Positions 13,580 through 43,639 of a stretch of 64,000 nucleotides of DNA are shown here, piece after piece. The translations under genes and the position numbers were made by a program. Below the pieces are notes generated by a model, which was not told the origin of the DNA, did no database searches, and saw only the letters and a list, made by a program, of their open reading frames with translations. Position 1 is the first letter of the stretch; each line of letters starts with the position of its first letter. Source of the DNA: Cellulomonas persica (GTDB taxonomy: Bacteria; Actinomycetota; Actinomycetes; Actinomycetales; Cellulomonadaceae); contig NZ_BJUA01000005.1 in assembly GCF_007989825.1 (NCBI RefSeq), positions 62,001-126,000 of the forward strand, read 5' to 3'.

Positions 13580-14136
13580 GGTGTCACCTCCTCGTCGCCA
13601 GGCTCGTCGCCGTGCTCGTCGCCCTGCTGGGCCTCGTCGTGCTGGTTCCCCTCGGGACGGCCCTCGCGGACCAGGCCGTCGTCGACCTCGTCGCGGGCCT
13701 CCTCGGCCTCCTCGTCGAGCGACTGACGGGTCGCCTCGGTGTCGGCGTCCGCGGTCGCGCGCTCGTCGATCGCCGCGAGACGCGCGATACGGCGGTCCTC
13801 GACGTCGTCCTGCACCTCGTCGTGCCGCTGCAGCTGCCACGAGCGGTAGGCCATCGCCAGCAGGAACGCCGTCATGCCGAGCGTGATGACGATCGCCGTG
13901 AGCACCATCGCCTGCGGCAGCGGGTCGGACATGCGGCGCTCGTCGGCGAGCCCGACGATCGGCGGGCGCCCGGCGCGTCCCCCGGCGACGAGGAACAGCA
14001 GGTTGGCGCCGTTGCCGAGCAGGATCACGCCGATCAGCACGCGCGACAGCGACCGCTCGAGCACCAGGTACACGCCCGCGGCGAACAGCACGCCGATCGC
14101 GACGACGAGCGTGATGTTGGGGGCCATGTCGATCAT
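13576..14136 (-). CDS. mrpC: Mrp Na+/H+ antiporter subunit C
   Basis: A 186-residue NuoK-like protein. The first 115 residues hold three helices with the conserved YLVLERSLSRVLIGVILLGNGANLL and DPLPQAMVLTAIVITLGMTAF segments, which include the membrane Glu and the LTAIVI motif shared with NuoK. A charged C-terminal tail of about 70 residues (Asp/Glu-rich, ending GDEEVTP) is an actinobacterial extension. The ATG at 14136 overlaps the mrpA stop by 4 bases; an internal ATG at 14127 is less likely for that reason. Confidence 0.93.
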   Translation of the reverse strand: MIDMAPNITLVVAIGVLFAAGVYLVLERSLSRVLIGVILLGNGANLLFLVAGGRAGRPPIVGLADERRMSDPLPQAMVLTAIVITLGMTAFLLAMAYRSWQLQRHDEVQDDVEDRRIARLAAIDERATADADTEATRQSLDEEAEEARDEVDDGLVREGRPEGNQHDEAQQGDEHGDEPGDEEVTP

Positions 14137-17100
14137 CGCGACGCCCCTTCCCCGACCCGCGGCACGGCGCCGTCGAACGGCGGGTCGTCGCCGATCTCCG
14201 CGCGCCGGTCGAGCTCGGCGCCGAGCGAGCGCAGGATGTCGAGCACGAGGCCGACGACGACGAGGTACACGCCGATGTCGAAGAACAGGCTCGTGACCAG
14301 GTGCACGTCGCCGAGCAGCGGCACGTGCAGGTCGACGATCCACGAACGCAGCACCGACCCGCCCGCGAGCAGCCCGACGAGCCCCACGCCCGCGGACAGG
14401 AACAGGCCCGTGCCGAGCAGCAGACCGGGCTGCACGGGTGCGGCCTCGCCGAGCTCGTACCGACCGCCCGCGAGGTAGCGCACCGTGAGCGCGATGCCCG
14501 TGACCAGGCCCGCGGCGAACCCGCCGCCCGGCTGGTTGTGCCCGCTGAACAGCAGGAACACCGAGTACACGACCATCGTGTGGAACAGCAGCCGCACGAC
14601 GACCTCGAAGATCACCGAGCGTCGCTGCGGCGCGAGCGTCGAGCCGGCGCGCAGCCACTCGCGGTTCGTCGTCGGTGCGTTGATGCGCGCCTCGTCCGTC
14701 CCCCGCCGCAGCGCCGCCATCGGGTCGAGCCCCGCCCACACCGCCCGCTCGGGCGCCGCGTCCCGCGCCCGGAAGATCTGTCCCGTGCGCCGCGAGAGGA
14801 AGACGAGCGACGCGACGCCGGTCGCCGCGACCAGCAGCACCGAGATCTCGCCCATCGTGTCCCACGCGCGGATGTCGACGAGCGTCACGTTGACGATGTT
14901 CTTGCCGCCGCCCCAGCTGACCGCCTCCTCGGCGAAGTGCTCCGTGACGGGCGGGTGGATGCGCGCGGACGGTGCGACCAGGGCGATGCCGGCGACCGTG
15001 AACCCGACGGCCAGGCCGATCGCGAGACGCAGCCAGCGCGATGCGACCAGGGGACGGTCGGAGAAGTACGGCGGGATGCGGCGCAGCACGAGCACGAACA
15101 CGACGAGCGTGACGGTCTCGGTGAGCACCTGCGTGAGCGCGAGGTCGGGCGCTCCCTGCAGCAGGAACAGACCCGCGACCGCGTAGCCACCGATGCCGAG
15201 CAGGATGACGGCCTTGAGGCGCCGGCGGGCGCGCGCGACGAGCACCGACGAGGCGATCACCGCGGCCGCGAACACGACCTGCGCGGGGTGGTCCCACGCG
15301 GTGACGTCGGTGGGCCACGTGCCGCCGACGAGCAGGCTCGTGCCCACGCCGACGACGAAGACGACGAGCACGACGCCGACGTACAGCGGCAGCGAGCCGC
15401 GCTGCGTCGCGGCGGTCACGTCGGCGGCGAAGTCGTCGAGCCGGCGCATGAACCGGCGGTAGATGCGGTCGGCGTCGGGGCCGCGGTACGTCAGACGCGC
15501 CTGCACCGTCTCGATGCGCTCCCGCACCGCGAACAGCGCGGCACCGGCGACGAGGATCACCACGGTGAGCAGGAGCGTGGGCGTGACCCCGGCCCACAGC
15601 GCGAGGTGCCCGGGCTCGCCGACGTGCAGCGTGTCCGCGTACGGCTCGAGCAGGTGCTCGCCGAGCTGCGGCAGGAGCGCCACGGCGAGTCCCAGGACGC
15701 CGAGGATCATCGCGGGCCACACGAGCAGCAGCGACGGGTGCGAGATCGCGGCGGGCTCGGCGTCCGGCTGCGTCGCCACGCGGCTCGTCGACCCCGGGCT
15801 GCGCGCGCCGTCCGCCTGCGTCGCGACGGCCTCGTGCGCGATCGCCGACTCGGGGATGACCGCGCGCTTCGTCGCGAACGCACCCCACCACAGCCGCAGC
15901 CCGTACGCGACCGTCAGCACCGACCCCACCGCGACGCTGACCAGCACGATCAGCCCGACGGCGTTGTCCTGGAGGTGCTCGATCGCCTCGAGCCCCGCCT
16001 CCTTGGCGACGTACCCCGCGAACGGCGGGAGGCCGATCATGCTCGCCGTCCCGAGCGCACCCGCGAGCGCCGTGAGCTTGAGCTCCTTGCCGACGCCCGA
16101 CAGGCGCCGCAGGTCACGCGTACCCGTCGCGGCGTCGACCACGCCGACGACGAGGAACAGCGTCGCCTTGAACATCGCGTGCGCGCCGAGCATCGCCAGA
16201 CCCGCGAGCGCCGTGGCGCGCGTGCCCAGGCCGACGAGCAGCGTGATCAGCCCGAGCTGGCTGACCGTGCCGAACGCGAGGACGAGCTTGAGGTCGTGCT
16301 GCCGCAGCGCGCGGTACCCGCCGAGCAGCAACGTCCCGCACCCGAGCACGACGACGGTCCACCGCCACAGCTCGTGCTGCGAGAACGCGGGCGCGAACCG
16401 CGCGACGAGGTACACCCCTGCTTTGACCATCGCCGCCGCGTGCAGGTACGCCGAGACGGGCGTCGGCGCGGCCATCGCGGCGGGCAGCCAGAAGTGGAAC
16501 GGCAGCAGCGCGGACTTCGTCGCCGCACCCGCGAGCAGGCACGCGATCGCGGCGGTCGCCGCGGCGCCCGTCGGCGGGTGCGCGATCACCTCGCTGAGCC
16601 GGTACGTCCCCGCGGACTCGCCCAGGAGCACCACGCCGACGAGCATCGCCAGGCCACCCGCGGTGGTGATGACGATCGCCTGCATGGCCGCGCGACGGCT
16701 CGCCTTGCGGTCGCTGTAGTGGCCGATCAGCAGGTAGGAGGTGACGGTGGTCAGCTCCCAGAAGATGAACATGAGGACCATGTCGTCGGCCGTGACCAGG
16801 CCGAGCATCGCGCCCGCGAACGCGACGAACACCCCGCCGAACCGGCCGAGCCCCTGCGCCGAGACCGAGAAGTACGCCGCGCAGTAGATCAGCACGAGCG
16901 CACCGACCCCACCGACGACGAGCGTCATGAGCCACGCGAGCGTGTCGAGCCGGAACGTCAGGTCCAGCCCGAGCGCCGGGATCCACTGCACGCTCTGCAC
17001 GGGTCCGTCCCCGCGCTGCACCTGCGACGTCCAGCTCAGCGCCCAGATCGCGGCCGAGGCCGGAGCGGCGGCGAGCACCCAGAACGCCTTGCGTCCCCAC

Positions 17101-17195
17101 AGCCCGACCAGCGTGGGCGCAACGAGGGCTGCTGCGAGATGGATGAGAAGCAGCAGCAGCACGCGTGCGGGCTCCGTCCTGTCGGGGCGCAGCAC
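14133..17195 (-). CDS. mrpA: Mrp Na+/H+ antiporter subunit A fused to subunit B
   Basis: A 1020-residue protein, first gene of the operon. The N-terminal 500 residues are NuoL-like (LMFIFWELTTVTSYLLIGHYSDRK, LPFHFWLPAAMAAPTPVSAYLHAAAMVKAGVY in pieces), with the channel Glu and Lys residues. A second antiporter-like helical block follows. From about residue 850 on, the sequence is MrpB: VIFEVVVRLLFHTMVVYS and LFSGHNQPGGGF. This explains why no separate mrpB exists and gives gene order A(B)-C-D-E-F-G, common in actinobacteria. The complex expels Na+ in exchange for protons and supports pH and salt tolerance. Upstream lies the long repeat-bearing spacer with no obvious promoter I can defend. Confidence 0.93.
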   Translation of the reverse strand: MLRPDRTEPARVLLLLLIHLAAALVAPTLVGLWGRKAFWVLAAAPASAAIWALSWTSQVQRGDGPVQSVQWIPALGLDLTFRLDTLAWLMTLVVGGVGALVLIYCAAYFSVSAQGLGRFGGVFVAFAGAMLGLVTADDMVLMFIFWELTTVTSYLLIGHYSDRKASRRAAMQAIVITTAGGLAMLVGVVLLGESAGTYRLSEVIAHPPTGAAATAAIACLLAGAATKSALLPFHFWLPAAMAAPTPVSAYLHAAAMVKAGVYLVARFAPAFSQHELWRWTVVVLGCGTLLLGGYRALRQHDLKLVLAFGTVSQLGLITLLVGLGTRATALAGLAMLGAHAMFKATLFLVVGVVDAATGTRDLRRLSGVGKELKLTALAGALGTASMIGLPPFAGYVAKEAGLEAIEHLQDNAVGLIVLVSVAVGSVLTVAYGLRLWWGAFATKRAVIPESAIAHEAVATQADGARSPGSTSRVATQPDAEPAAISHPSLLLVWPAMILGVLGLAVALLPQLGEHLLEPYADTLHVGEPGHLALWAGVTPTLLLTVVILVAGAALFAVRERIETVQARLTYRGPDADRIYRRFMRRLDDFAADVTAATQRGSLPLYVGVVLVVFVVGVGTSLLVGGTWPTDVTAWDHPAQVVFAAAVIASSVLVARARRRLKAVILLGIGGYAVAGLFLLQGAPDLALTQVLTETVTLVVFVLVLRRIPPYFSDRPLVASRWLRLAIGLAVGFTVAGIALVAPSARIHPPVTEHFAEEAVSWGGGKNIVNVTLVDIRAWDTMGEISVLLVAATGVASLVFLSRRTGQIFRARDAAPERAVWAGLDPMAALRRGTDEARINAPTTNREWLRAGSTLAPQRRSVIFEVVVRLLFHTMVVYSVFLLFSGHNQPGGGFAAGLVTGIALTVRYLAGGRYELGEAAPVQPGLLLGTGLFLSAGVGLVGLLAGGSVLRSWIVDLHVPLLGDVHLVTSLFFDIGVYLVVVGLVLDILRSLGAELDRRAEIGDDPPFDGAVPRVGEGASR

Positions 17196-17502: not shown

Positions 17503-17613
17503 CGAGCGCGCCAGATCCGGTCCGAGCGCGGGCCTGCTCGAGCCGCGCTCGCGGCCGATCACCCGCGCTCGCGCACCAACGCCCGCGCTCGCGCGGGTGG
17601 GCCGGCGCTCGTG
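17503..17613. repeat. Inverted word array, copy 2 (20-bp step)
   Basis: Same design as the copy 154 bp upstream: CGAGCGCG at 17503 and 17523, a jump of 23 bp, then CGCTCGCG at 17546, 17566 and 17586 and the variant CGCTCGTG at 17606. Word, step (20) and jump (23) are the same as in copy 1, though the filler between words has diverged. The array ends about 50 bp before the Fe-S protein gene. Confidence 0.8.
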
Positions 17614-17664: not shown

Positions 17665-19848
17665 GTGAACGGGGTGCAGTGGGCGTGCCTGGTCGTCGTC
17701 GTCGCGACGACGGTCGTCGGCGTGTGGTTGTTCGCCCGCGGGGCGACGAGGATCACGCGCACGGTCGGCATCGGCCGGCCCGCTCCGGGGCGGCTCAAGC
17801 CCGTCGGGCAGCGGCTGGCCACGCTCGCGCGCGAGGTGCTCGGGCACGGTCGGTTCCAGCACCGGCCCGTCGTGCGCGCGGCGCACTGGGTGGTCATGGT
17901 GTCGTTCCCGGTGCTCGCGGTGACGCTCGCGACCGGGTACCTGCAGGTCGTCTCCCCGAGTGCCGCGCTGCCGCTGATCGGGCACCTGGTGCCGCTCGAG
18001 TGGGCGGTCGAGCTGCTCGCGTGGACCTCGCTCGTCGGGATCGTCGCGCTCATCGTGCTGCGCCTGCGGATCCGGCCGCGCGCCTCGCAGCCGGACGACG
18101 TCCAGCGTCGGTCGCGGTTCTTCGGGTCCACGCAGTGGCAGGCGTTCTACGTCGAGGCGACCGTGCTCCTCGTCGTGCTGGCCGTGATCGTCCTGCGCGG
18201 GCTCGAGTACGCGCTCGCGGCCGCGGCCGGTGAGGGCACCGCGTCCGCGTTGCACTTCCCGCTCACCGCGTGGCTGGGGCAGGCCTGGCAGGGCGCGACG
18301 ACGAGCACGCTGGAGACCGCGGTCGTCGTCGTGGCCACGGTGAAGATCGTCGTCTCGATGACGTGGCTCATGGTGATCGGCCTGCAGCCGACGATGGGCG
18401 TGGCCTGGCACCGGTTCCTGGGCCTGGTCAACGTGTACGCGCGGCGCGAGCCGGACGGCGCCCCCGCGCTCGGACCCCTGCAGCCGCTGACGCTCGCGGA
18501 CGGCTCACGCGTCGACCTGGCCGCGCTCGAGGACCTGCCCGACGACGCGCGCCTGGGCGTCGGCGCGATCGAGGACTTCACCTGGAAGGGTCTGCTCGAC
18601 TTCGCGACCTGCACCGAGTGCGGCCGCTGCCAGGACCAGTGCCCCGCCTGGGCCACGGGCAAGCCGCTGTCCCCCAAGCTCGTCACGCTCGCGCTGCGCG
18701 ACCACGCCGCCGCGACCGCGCCGTACCTGCGCGCACCGGACGGCACGCGCAACCTCGACGACGAGCACGCGGGCCTCGACCTGATCGGCACGGGCGTGAT
18801 CGACCCCGACGCGCTGTGGGCGTGCACCTCGTGCGGTGCGTGCGTGCAGCAGTGCCCGGTGGACATCGAGCACGTGGACGCGATCGTCGACATGCGCCGC
18901 TACCAGGTGCTCATGGAGTCCGCGTTCCCCAAGGAGCTCGGCGGCACGTTCACCAAGCTCGAGCGGCAGGGCAACCCGTGGGGTCTGCCCGCCCGCGCGC
19001 GGCTCGACTGGGCCAAGGGGCTCGACTTCGAGGTCCCGGTGGTCGGCGCGGACGTGGAGTCCGCGGCCGACGTCGAGTATTTGTTCTGGGTCGGCTGCGC
19101 CGGGGCGTACGAGGACCGCGCCAAGCGGACGACGAGGGCCGTGGCCGAGCTCCTGCACGCCGCCGGGGTGAGCTTCGCGGTGCTCGGCGACGGTGAGACG
19201 TGCACCGGCGACCCGGCCCGCCGAGCGGGCAACGAGCTGCTCTACCAGATGCTCGCCGCGCAGAACGTCGAGGTGCTCAACGAGGTCGGCGCGCAGCGCA
19301 TCGTCGTGACGTGCGCGCACTGCTTCAACACCATCAGCCGCGAGTACCCGCAGCTCGGCGGCCGGTACGAGGTGGTCCACCACACGGTCCTGCTCGACCA
19401 GCTCATCTCCGACGGTCGCCTCACGCTGCTGCCCGCGGACGACGAACGCACGGTCACCTACCACGACCCCTGCTACCTGGGCCGGCACAACCAGGTCTAC
19501 TCGCCGCCGCGCGAGCTGCTCGGCGCGATCCCGGGTGTGCAGGTCACCGAGATGCCGCGCTCCGGTGCGGACTCCTTCTGCTGCGGCGCGGGCGGCGCAC
19601 GCGTGTGGATGGAGGAGTCCATCGGCACGCGCATCTCCACGGCCCGCGCAACCGAGGCGATCGCCACCGGCGCCGACGTCATCGCCACCGCGTGCCCCTA
19701 CTGCACGGTCATGCTCACCGACGGCGTCGCCGCCGCGAGCTCGGCGGACACGGCGTCGTCGTCCGCCGCGCAGCCTGGCGCCGCCGTGGGCGTCCCGGAG
19801 GTCACCGACATCGCCCTCCTCCTCCGCGACCGCCTCGCCACCCCCTGA
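17665..19848 (+). CDS. Membrane-anchored heterodisulfide-reductase-like Fe-S oxidoreductase
   Basis: A 727-residue protein. Residues 1-260 hold about five membrane helices with a heme-b-type gamma-subunit look (HRPVVRAAHWVVMVSFPVLAV). Two 4Fe-4S motifs follow: CTECGRCQDQCP from Cys316 and CTSCGACVQQCP from Cys387. The C-terminal half has two CCG (cysteine-rich, DUF224) domains: CAHCFNTISREYP, and CCGAGGARVWMEE with ACPYC. The layout matches the essential mycobacterial protein Rv0338c and other HdrD/GlpC-like quinone-linked reductases. Substrate is unknown; it probably moves electrons between the quinone pool and a thiol or organic donor. The last 50 residues before the end include a low-complexity Ser/Ala insert. 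It stands alone. Confidence 0.88.
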   Translation: MNGVQWACLVVVVATTVVGVWLFARGATRITRTVGIGRPAPGRLKPVGQRLATLAREVLGHGRFQHRPVVRAAHWVVMVSFPVLAVTLATGYLQVVSPSAALPLIGHLVPLEWAVELLAWTSLVGIVALIVLRLRIRPRASQPDDVQRRSRFFGSTQWQAFYVEATVLLVVLAVIVLRGLEYALAAAAGEGTASALHFPLTAWLGQAWQGATTSTLETAVVVVATVKIVVSMTWLMVIGLQPTMGVAWHRFLGLVNVYARREPDGAPALGPLQPLTLADGSRVDLAALEDLPDDARLGVGAIEDFTWKGLLDFATCTECGRCQDQCPAWATGKPLSPKLVTLALRDHAAATAPYLRAPDGTRNLDDEHAGLDLIGTGVIDPDALWACTSCGACVQQCPVDIEHVDAIVDMRRYQVLMESAFPKELGGTFTKLERQGNPWGLPARARLDWAKGLDFEVPVVGADVESAADVEYLFWVGCAGAYEDRAKRTTRAVAELLHAAGVSFAVLGDGETCTGDPARRAGNELLYQMLAAQNVEVLNEVGAQRIVVTCAHCFNTISREYPQLGGRYEVVHHTVLLDQLISDGRLTLLPADDERTVTYHDPCYLGRHNQVYSPPRELLGAIPGVQVTEMPRSGADSFCCGAGGARVWMEESIGTRISTARATEAIATGADVIATACPYCTVMLTDGVAAASSADTASSSAAQPGAAVGVPEVTDIALLLRDRLATP

Positions 19849-19866
19849 CCCCCGACCCGGAGCCGA

Positions 19867-19926
19867 GTCGTCAGTGACGCGCTGGATCGTCAGCTACGAC
19901 TGACGACCCCGCGATGTCCTGACGAC
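19867..19926. repeat. Inverted word array GTCGTCAG / CTGACGAC (19-bp step)
   Basis: GTCGTCAG at 19867 and ATCGTCAG at 19886 are 19 bp apart; 14 bp further the inverse CTGACGAC starts at 19900 and repeats at 19919, again 19 bp. The outermost forward and first inverse words extend to a perfect 9-bp stem (GTCGTCAGT 19867-19875, ACTGACGAC 19899-19907). It lies between the convergent Fe-S gene and the 19950 gene, so it may act as a terminator, but the same geometry recurs at 42783-42861. Confidence 0.8.
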
Positions 19927-19949
19927 TGAGCGCGCCTGATCGGTGCGGG

Positions 19950-21086
19950 TCAGAGGTCGGCGGGGTCGATGAGGAAGTCGGCCTCGTCGGCGATCTCCCC
20001 GCCGACGGCGGCGTGGAGGGCCCGCGCGATCGCCTGCACCACGGGCGCGCTGCGGGTCCGTGCGACGCGGTGCTCGAACGACGGCTTCTCGAGCTCGAGC
20101 TCCTCGATGAGCAGCGGCTCCCAGCGCACCCGGTAGGCGACCACGCCGTCCTGCGTCCACGGCAGCCCCTGCAGCAGCGGCGGGAGGTCCTGCTCCTCGG
20201 CCGCCTCGACCACCACCATGCCGTCGACCCCGAGCTCGACGAGCACCCCGAACGACTCGGCCGCAGGCGGCGCCGCGAGCATGAGCTCGTCGAAGGCCGC
20301 GGCCTCCATCTGCAGGCGCCGACGCTCGTCGGGATCGAGGACCCCGTGCTCGAGCAGCGCGTCGCGCAGCCCCGAGCCGCCGGGCTCGGGCATGCCGGAC
20401 AACGCGTGCCCCTCGTACCGGCCGGCGCCGCGCATCGGGCCGTCCCACTCGCTCGTCGGGACGGACAGCCGCGCGCGCGGCGCCGCGCGCTGGACCACGG
20501 CGAGCGCCTCGGCGGGCTCGACCCAGTGGTCGGAGAACACGGTGAGGTCGATCGCGGACTCCATGTCGGGCTGCAGCACGACGCCCGTCTGCCCGGTCCG
20601 CACCGCACCGCCGAGCCGCCGCGCGGCCGCGACGAGCCACAGCAGGACACGCTCCTCCTCACGGTTCGGGTAGCCGTCGGGGAACGCGCGCTTGAGCCCG
20701 TGCCGGTCGCCGCCCGGGTAGGGCTTCGCGCCGCGGTCGCGCGGGCAGACGACGTCGAACGCGGTCGTCGTCGAGACGGGCAGGCCGAGGGTGAGGGCGT
20801 CCTCCTGCGTGACCGCGTACGGGCCGACGAGGGTGGAGTGGCGGTTCAGGCGCAGCACGCGCGCCTGCGGCCGCGCGCCGGACAGCCGCAGCCCGAACGC
20901 GGCGGTCAGCGGCCGGGAGCGCTGCGTGGGGGTGTCGCCCCCGGGCTCCTCCCAGCGCGCGTTGACGAAGCGGCTCGCGGCGAGGACCTCGACCTCGTCG
21001 GGCTCGACACCGTCGGGCAGCGCGAGCAGGTGACGCGTGCGCAGGCCGTCGTCGGACAGCGGTAGACGCGGCAGGTCGCGCGTCAT
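19950..21086 (-). CDS. Uncharacterised actinobacterial protein, paralogue of the 38875 gene
   Basis: A 378-residue soluble protein with no motif I can name. It shares architecture with the gene at 38875-39750: an early [HL]-V/L-LALP-x-G segment, and a C-terminal block AYRVRW then R-x-x-P-x-V-x-x-IA-x-ALH-x-A-x-GGE-x-x-DE-x-x-F-I-DP. The C-terminal block ends the protein in both. No signal peptide or membrane helix is seen. It lies 4 bases after dcd on the same strand, so the two are probably co-transcribed, but a nucleotide link is not established. The ATG at 21086 is the only good start. Confidence 0.7.
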   Translation of the reverse strand: MTRDLPRLPLSDDGLRTRHLLALPDGVEPDEVEVLAASRFVNARWEEPGGDTPTQRSRPLTAAFGLRLSGARPQARVLRLNRHSTLVGPYAVTQEDALTLGLPVSTTTAFDVVCPRDRGAKPYPGGDRHGLKRAFPDGYPNREEERVLLWLVAAARRLGGAVRTGQTGVVLQPDMESAIDLTVFSDHWVEPAEALAVVQRAAPRARLSVPTSEWDGPMRGAGRYEGHALSGMPEPGGSGLRDALLEHGVLDPDERRRLQMEAAAFDELMLAAPPAAESFGVLVELGVDGMVVVEAAEEQDLPPLLQGLPWTQDGVVAYRVRWEPLLIEELELEKPSFEHRVARTRSAPVVQAIARALHAAVGGEIADEADFLIDPADL

Positions 21087-41132: not shown

Positions 41133-42656
<1,524 letters not shown>

Positions 42657-42782: not shown

Positions 42783-42861
42783 GTCGTCAGGCGCGCGCTG
42801 GGTCGTCAGGCGCGCGGTGGGTCGTCAGGTCGTGCTGACGACCCACATGCGGTCTGACGAC
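42783..42861. repeat. Inverted word array GTCGTCAG / CTGACGAC (19-bp step), three forward copies
   Basis: GTCGTCAG at 42783, 42802 and 42821 (step 19), then after 14 bp the inverse CTGACGAC at 42835 and 42854 (step 19). The filler after the word is CGCGCTGG-like, as in the locus at 19867. The central part forms a perfect 12-bp stem, GTGGGTCGTCAG with CTGACGACCCAC, and a 6-base loop. It lies between the aldehyde dehydrogenase start and the end of nfo. Confidence 0.85.
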
Positions 42862-42877: not shown

Positions 42878-43639
42878 TCAGCCTGCGAGCGCCGCCCGCA
42901 GGAAGGCGATGTCGTCGGCCTGGCCCTCGGCCGGGGTCTCGACGATCGCGTCGCAGCCCGCCTCGCGGACCACGTGCGCGATGAGCTCGGGCGGAATGGT
43001 GCCGTGCGCGAAGTTCGCGTGGCGGTCCCGGTTGGAGCCTGCCTCGTCGCGCGAGCTGTTCGCGTGGACCAGGTCGATCCGGCCGGTGATCGCGGTGATC
43101 TGCTCGACCACGGTCTCCAGGTCGAGGCCCGACGCCCACGCGTGGCACGTGTCGAGGCAGAAGCCGACGTCGTACTGGCCGATCGCGTCCCAGAGCTGCG
43201 CGATGCGGTCGAGCGTGCGCGCGCACGCATTCTCGCCGCCCGCGGTGTTCTCGACGAGCACGCGCACGGGGTACGTCGCGCGCTCGAACGTCTTGCGCCA
43301 GTTGTCGACGCCCACCGCGATGTCGTCGCCCGCGCCCACGTGCCCGCCGTGCACGATCAGCCCGCGCGCGCCGAGCGTCGCGGCCGCGGCGCTGTGCTGG
43401 GCGATCATGGTGCGGCTCGGGATGCGGATGCGGTTGTTGGTCGACGCGACGTTGACCAGGTACGGCGCGTGCACGTAGACCCCGAGGCCGCTCGCGACGA
43501 TCGCGTCGGCGTCCGGGCGCGGCTCGGGCTTCTTCCAGCCCTGCGGGTCGGCGAGGAACACCTGCACCGCCTGCGCACCGGTCTCGGCGGCGGCCGCCAC
43601 CGGGTCGTCGCCACGCGTGTGAGCACCGATCAGCACCAC
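42878..43639 (-). CDS. nfo: Endonuclease IV (AP endonuclease)
   Basis: A 253-residue TIM-barrel repair enzyme that cuts DNA at abasic sites. The zinc ligands are visible: His in VYVHAPYLVN, His in LIVHGGHVGAG, Glu in VLVENTAGGEN, Asp and His in FCLDTCHAW, His in LVHANSSRDEAGSNRDRHAN with the Asp/His pair, and Glu in IVETPAEG. Slightly shorter than the 280-residue E. coli protein, as usual for actinobacteria. GTG at 43639 follows GACGAGGG; a second GTG is next to it. The upstream 100 bases are a Gly/Glu/Asp-codon-like GACGAG tandem run with no other feature. Its place within the aldehyde cluster looks incidental. Confidence 0.9.
   Translation of the reverse strand: MVLIGAHTRGDDPVAAAAETGAQAVQVFLADPQGWKKPEPRPDADAIVASGLGVYVHAPYLVNVASTNNRIRIPSRTMIAQHSAAAATLGARGLIVHGGHVGAGDDIAVGVDNWRKTFERATYPVRVLVENTAGGENACARTLDRIAQLWDAIGQYDVGFCLDTCHAWASGLDLETVVEQITAITGRIDLVHANSSRDEAGSNRDRHANFAHGTIPPELIAHVVREAGCDAIVETPAEGQADDIAFLRAALAG

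Follow-up and report, generated by a model that had tools for sequence, protein, structure and literature searches.

We analyzed a 64,000-nucleotide window of the Cellulomonas persica genome (G000; 3,663,627 bases in 44 contigs), corresponding to positions 62001-126000 of contig C5, which carries two arrays of a short word repeated in direct and inverted orientation. Array A (19867..19926) comprises two forward half-sites (19867-19874 and 19886-19893) and two inverted ones (19900-19907 and 19919-19926), with steps of 19, 14, and 19 bp. Its words are GTCGTCAG at 19867, ATCGTCAG, which differs by one letter, at 19886, and CTGACGAC at both 19900 and 19919. Array B (42783..42861) has a period of 19 and contains three forward half-sites (42783, 42802, and 42821) and two inverted ones (42835 and 42854). 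Array A is preceded by a plus-strand gene for an iron-sulfur protein with CCG cysteine-rich and Fer4 domains (17665..19848), whose stop lies 19 bp before the array, and is followed by a minus-strand gene of 378 amino acids without a Pfam match (19950..21086), whose stop lies 24 bp after it. Array B sits between two minus-strand genes, one for an aldehyde dehydrogenase (41133..42656), which starts 146 bp before the core of the array (42803), and one for a xylose-isomerase-like TIM-barrel protein (AP_endonuc_2; 42878..43639), whose stop lies 17 bp after the array. The start of the gene at 17665..19848 was chosen by a home-made gene caller. The original prediction, made from the window, described the two contexts as convergent and tandem, a contrast that masks a rule: each of the arrays closely follows the stop codon of a gene.

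The words and the 19/14/19 steps were present at both loci, as had been claimed. When up to three mismatches were allowed, the complete pattern matched twice in the window, with one and zero mismatches, and these matches were arrays A and B; it was absent from 100 dinucleotide shuffles of the window. The filler said to be shared, CGCGCTGG, does occur in both arrays, but in array B it follows the first forward word, at 42783, and not the one at 42802.

We then searched the whole 3.66-Mb genome. TCGTCAG-N12-TCGTCAG gave 31 matches (16 forward and 15 reverse) at 16 places, and TCGTCAG...CTGACGA pairs occurred 28 times; both controls, the first of them the reversed word, gave none. The half-site spans about 13 bp (GCGAGGTCGTCAG in G000). 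An array combines two half-sites of one orientation, separated by a 19-bp step, with two of the opposite orientation; the center measures 6 bp, and the fillers vary. A sequence-only model was built from 19 arrays and searched on both strands, so that most of these nearly symmetric arrays were counted twice. It matched 63 of 81 genomes of the genus (E value of 0.01 or better); some genomes had dozens of matches, and 18 had none. Exact three-word matches were found in 12 stretches of named records, which belong to Cellulomonas hominis, C. fimi HM71, C. pakistanensis, and Cellulomonas sp. Leaf395, and to Actinotalea, Micrococcales, and Actinomycetota metagenome-assembled genomes. Furthermore, a first scan that used no word found that nested palindromes with similar direct repeats concentrate at period 19. 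The check proposed with the original prediction, whether the pattern exceeds chance and extends beyond two loci, was run in this genome and in the genus, and supports the view that the arrays are a defined, genome-wide element of fixed geometry rather than chance palindromes. In a wide gap between convergent genes on contig C4 (G000:C4:214828-215065), two degenerate TCGTCAG-type arrays lie within about 240 bp.

Two arrays enclose a gene of about 300 codons in C. persica and homologues of it in two other genomes, G194 and G160. In C. persica this gene occupies positions 41606-42541 in the numbering of contig C5 and ends about 19.5 kb before the start of the window, which is why it was missed by the original prediction. 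A homologue 97% identical to it models as an AbiEi-antitoxin-like half joined to a half resembling Vsr and homing endonucleases. The predicted folds are of AbiEi type, like that of Rv2827c, for the N-terminal half and of Vsr/homing-nuclease type for the C-terminal half. Pfam scans of the C. persica gene and its homologues returned AbiEi_4, MTES_1575, and DUF559 only, or nothing; NCBIfam gave no match for the C. persica protein, and a profile search of the PDB gave one weak, irrelevant match. Residues E198, D229, E240, D242, and K246 were invariant in 63 sequences, which is compatible with nuclease activity. Homologues were present in 71 of the 81 genomes (E value of 1e-6 or better), and 107 of 396 genomes sampled across the phylum matched the family alignment. 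Proteins of the family are annotated as DUF559, very-short-patch-repair endonuclease, or AbiEi antitoxin. C. persica itself carries at least three such genes (four matches were counted) and three matching populations of arrays, the third match being looser. The second gene (G000:C10:93443-94354) is intact, its TGA being an ordinary stop; by eye, its N-terminal half has an insertion of about 45 residues compared with its relatives.

To examine the association of gene and arrays, we scanned 90 homologue loci, a part of all homologues (70 stronger matches, in sets of 30 and 40, and 20 weaker ones), with a word-independent procedure that scores nested repeats only. The loci contained 91 arrays of period 19, 39 of period 20, and 15 of other periods (14-18, 24, and 25); three rounds of shuffling gave none at period 19 or 20 and three at other periods. 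Almost all of the period-19 and period-20 arrays (122 of 130) were located within 450 bp of the gene. Arrays adjoined the gene at 69 of the 90 loci, on both sides at 45 and on one side at 24, and 21 loci had none. For the 70 close loci, some of which are cut by contig ends, the corresponding numbers were 36, 21, and 13, and for the 20 distant ones they were 9, 3, and 8. Median distances to the gene were 134 bp for the 5' array, counted from the matched start (n = 63), and 59 bp for the 3' array, counted from the matched end (n = 59). At the phylum level, a stricter threshold yielded eight period-19 arrays beside 7 of 29 genes, one further gene with period 18 and one with period 27, and no array beside the remaining genes; all eight genes with an array of period 18 or 19 belong to the class of C. 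persica. The choice between a step of 19 and one of 20 bp tracks the protein tree, with 6 changes over 69 loci compared with a mean of 16 and a minimum of 12 in shuffles.

The words themselves vary widely from gene to gene (for example, GAGATCGTGG, GAACTCGTCGG, GATGAGCAC, GAGTTGGGC, AAGGCAAGGC, and GAGATAGGGCC). Half-sites agreed at 0.72 (period 19) and 0.71 (period 20) between the two arrays of one gene, compared with 0.44 and 0.48 between different genes, and words often differed between species within the same gene neighborhood. Across 51 period-19 loci, word similarity correlated with protein identity (Mantel r = 0.23, p = 0.011). By half, the correlation was 0.31 for the C-terminal half (p = 0.002) and 0.11 for the N-terminal half (p = 0.10), a result at odds with a simple model where the word is read by the N-terminal domain alone.

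A word read beside a gene should also be found dispersed in the genome that carries the gene. The word GAGATAGG, from the arrays beside the gene of G153 and G201, was found at a 19-bp step 62 times in G153 and 59 times in G201, compared with a single match in G041 and none in seven other genomes. Twenty distinct arrays read from these matches comprised 13 in convergent gaps, 3 in tandem gaps, 2 in divergent gaps, and 2 of unclear position. One row, G153:C48:187472-187593, has seven direct GAGATAGG half-sites in series at a 19-bp step instead of the usual two plus two, suggesting that arrays may grow in tandem. For TCGGCAG, the word beside the second C. persica gene, matches exceeded those of the reversed control in C. 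persica (21 versus 7), G164 (19 versus 5), and G198 (29 versus 7), and in G198 a gene match at C1:1349422-1349985 lies between two of them. The word was also raised in G194 (18 versus 5), without a known gene, and stayed near the control in G160 (5 and 5), G153 (4 and 4), G186 (8 and 3), and G093 (3 and 8). The period-20 word GCGCGGTA, beside genes of G204 and G212, gave 17 matches in G204, 24 in G212, 20 in C. persica, and 0 to 2 in five others, with no match in the controls. The third C. persica gene, on contig C21, is on the same branch as those of G204 and G212. This match of gene and word is looser, because the closest strong period-20 array is about 1.2 kb from the gene, with weaker ones (scores of 35 and 34) nearer by.

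The window arrays thus appear to belong to a repeat family with members that flank a predicted AbiEi-like and Vsr/homing-type nuclease gene about 20 kb away, whose protein likely recognizes the words and probably copies the arrays; we put the probability of this reading at roughly 60%. Recognition of the word by the protein is strongly inferred. AbiEi-type proteins bind inverted repeats next to the genes that encode them and are known to control their own expression, so the most economical view is that this protein binds the words and would regulate its own gene from the 5' array. Each array would then present four clustered half-sites to at least two protein molecules. Some copying process is likely, because a population of four-word sites for each new word would be hard to build by point mutation, and the nuclease, as modeled, is the obvious candidate: cutting followed by repair could spread arrays to new sites, gene 3' ends being the places where their insertion would do the least harm. 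A test of the fillers counts against a recent burst of such copying, since duplication did not exceed chance in G153 and was in slight excess in G201; the test used exact matches only (26 of 31 in G153 and 33 of 33 in G201) and left out five rows of one tandem G153 array.

More tentatively, and at somewhat less than even odds, the system could be an independent actinobacterial counterpart of the REPIN/RAYT systems, repeats of the repetitive extragenic palindromic (REP) type and their transposases. An AbiEi-homing-nuclease gene at a few syntenic sites would keep a private four-word vocabulary at gene ends, protein and vocabulary would turn over together while the step stayed fixed, and the nuclease would write the arrays by homing-like copying. 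PRDM9 and its hotspots in animals show a comparable joint turnover of protein and vocabulary.

The positions of the dispersed arrays bear on a different explanation, in which the protein would bind the arrays in the service of the host, either in regulation or at the ends of genes (as a transcription roadblock, insulator, or chromosome organizer), with the sites kept by host selection and the nuclease fold playing no part in their spread. We examined 97 arrays above the word threshold, from stretches around a part of the model matches in C. persica and eight relatives. According to the home-made gene caller, 45 were in convergent gaps, 45 in tandem gaps, 2 in divergent gaps, and 4 inside called genes, and 1 was unclear. 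The array-free gaps of at least 70 bp in the same stretches comprised 17 convergent, 147 tandem, and 81 divergent ones, so that the bias was strong for divergent gaps against the rest (p = 7e-11) and for convergent against tandem gaps (p = 6e-12). The median distance from an array to the nearest stop codon was 33.5 bp (n = 90), and 43 of the 45 arrays in tandem gaps were closer to the upstream stop than to the downstream start. In addition, corresponding gene ends often hold arrays in different species. For example, G171 (locus L217) has an array at a convergent gene end that matches that of array A; the two genes downstream show 88% and 93% identity, and the upstream neighbor was left without a match. 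No corresponding gene end with a changed word was found among 20 arrays compared with the 97.

This 3'-end and convergent-gap bias, the gene-end positions common to different species, the recurrence of the partner gene in at least five shared gene neighborhoods, which suggests vertical inheritance, and a plasmid and phage search that gave two weak partial plasmid matches and no phage match would all suit a host regulator, and a host role at gene ends is possible. However, a four-word site is unlikely to arise dozens of times by point mutation as the word changes with each gene, acidic residues of catalytic type are invariant, and REP elements share the gene-end bias (PMC3733652), so the bias by itself is no proof of a host role. 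We therefore consider an explanation by host selection without copying unlikely. A role as chromosome-domain sites was dropped, as proximity to parS was seen in G160 only: contig C1 of G194 showed no clustering of this kind, and no parS match was obtained for G165, G186, or G198. On contig C1 of G160, 12 of the 13 listed arrays are no more than about 1 Mb from parS-like sites, and none lies at 0.98-2.85 Mb.

Alternatively, the arrays might be titration sites that hold a toxic nuclease inactive, such that it would be released by the loss of arrays or by invading DNA, in the manner of an addiction or defense module. The combination of an AbiEi-type N-terminal half with a nuclease-like C-terminal half and the match between array populations and a gene's word are compatible with this idea. 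Yet the C. persica gene stands alone between its arrays, the genes adjoining it resemble a peptidase and a nucleoside kinase rather than a toxin partner when their translations are inspected by eye, and no AbiEii-type toxin was seen beside it, the neighbors having been read by eye at this locus only and without a family search. Overall, titration seems improbable to us.

The original prediction proposed cooperative protein binding, with alternating hairpins as another option. Predicted RNA folds of the two window arrays were strong (-42 and -55.8 kcal/mol; z = -6.5 and -7.8). Among dispersed arrays, compared within genomes with two odd arrays dropped, the flank of the inner pair covaried beyond permutation (z = 5.3). 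In these arrays the outer pair showed no covariation (z = 0.7), the word letters showed no compensation, and two of the direct or cross comparisons, which need no pairing, were also somewhat above permutation (z = 3.8 and 2.6). In gene-side period-19 arrays, compared in register, word identity was 0.83 and 0.83 for direct repeats, 0.79 for inner partners, 0.87 for outer partners, and 0.82 and 0.82 for cross pairs; the period-20 values were 0.82 and 0.82, 0.80, 0.89, and 0.80 and 0.80. The outer pair was thus the most alike of the six comparisons, but the direct and cross ones were nearly as alike (0.80-0.83), though the scan required likeness of direct repeats and of partners, not of cross pairs. 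The word is common to all four half-sites, as expected of a protein that reads half-sites, and the cognate gene, with its predicted DNA-binding fold, lies between arrays, which supports protein binding indirectly. The outer word and the inner flank show some additional similarity that could come from pairing, so that hairpins are a possible addition to protein sites. An RNA element was rejected, as Rfam at the gathering score gave nothing in the window except one tRNA and pairing alone fails to explain the shared word. That the arrays are mainly RNA hairpins acting as bidirectional terminators, with an incidental link to the nuclease gene, is the least probable explanation despite the folds, the inner-flank covariation, the likeness of the outer pair, and the gene-end placement, because it leaves the shared words beside 69 of 90 homologous genes unexplained, dispersed arrays lack word-letter compensation and outer-pair covariation, and a scan that covered array A only found no terminator-like site (a GC stem followed by a T run) at 19700-20100, where the stem itself is predicted.

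The window contains a probable third array with a CGAGCGCGG-type word and period 20 (17550..17607; score of 39). The evidence for it is weaker, as 10 shuffles of the window yielded two period-20 matches at the threshold of 37. It sits between divergent genes (14133-17162, minus strand, and 17665-19848, plus strand) and resembles arrays near the third C. persica nuclease gene on contig C21.

A literature search found no account of arrays paired with this gene family, most subscription journals being outside its coverage, so the paired gene and scattered repeat family are apparently undescribed so far. If our reading is true, the sequence next to many of the genes for solitary proteins annotated as DUF559 or AbiEi would directly reveal the DNA target of these proteins, binding and cutting would become testable together, and many natural pairs of protein and word would become available for learning how such proteins read DNA. 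It would also provide a second, unrelated answer to the persistence of short palindromic repeats in bacteria, so far tied to RAYT transposases.

Several known systems share parts of this one. AbiEi antitoxins and Rv2827c, which are described as binding inverted repeats in their own operon promoter (PMC7319586), have the same predicted fold as the N-terminal half, whereas here this fold is joined to a nuclease-like domain and the arrays are chromosome-wide. With Vsr, I-Bth0305I, and the Pfam families MTES_1575 and DUF559, the protein shares the predicted fold of the catalytic domain, to which an AbiEi-like half and flanking word arrays are added. CGTC-tagged REPs are short and palindromic, lie downstream of genes, and are said to lack a dedicated transposase (PMC3733652); the main text of that paper does not contain the terms Cellulomonas, Actinobacteria, or Micrococc. 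The CGTC in the window word is incidental, as other words of the nuclease-array system lack it (GAGATAGG and GATGAGCA). The closest parallel is REPIN/RAYT, in which a gene is flanked by repeats that also form a dispersed extragenic population, with gene-specific classes, a RAYT phylogeny largely congruent with that of the species, and REP repeats downstream of genes (PMC3116915, PMC3733652). Here, too, the partner gene is flanked by a dispersed repeat, on both sides at 45 of the 90 loci scanned. However, the enzyme is a predicted AbiEi and Vsr/homing-type nuclease, whereas RAYT is a Y1 HUH transposase of the IS200/IS605 type, and the unit is made of two direct and two inverted words with a 19- or 20-bp step, whereas a REPIN is a GTAG- or CGTC-tagged REP pair that forms one hairpin. 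Because both the enzyme superfamily and the repeat differ, the system resembles REPIN/RAYT in its logic but is not a member of it and, on our reading, arose independently.
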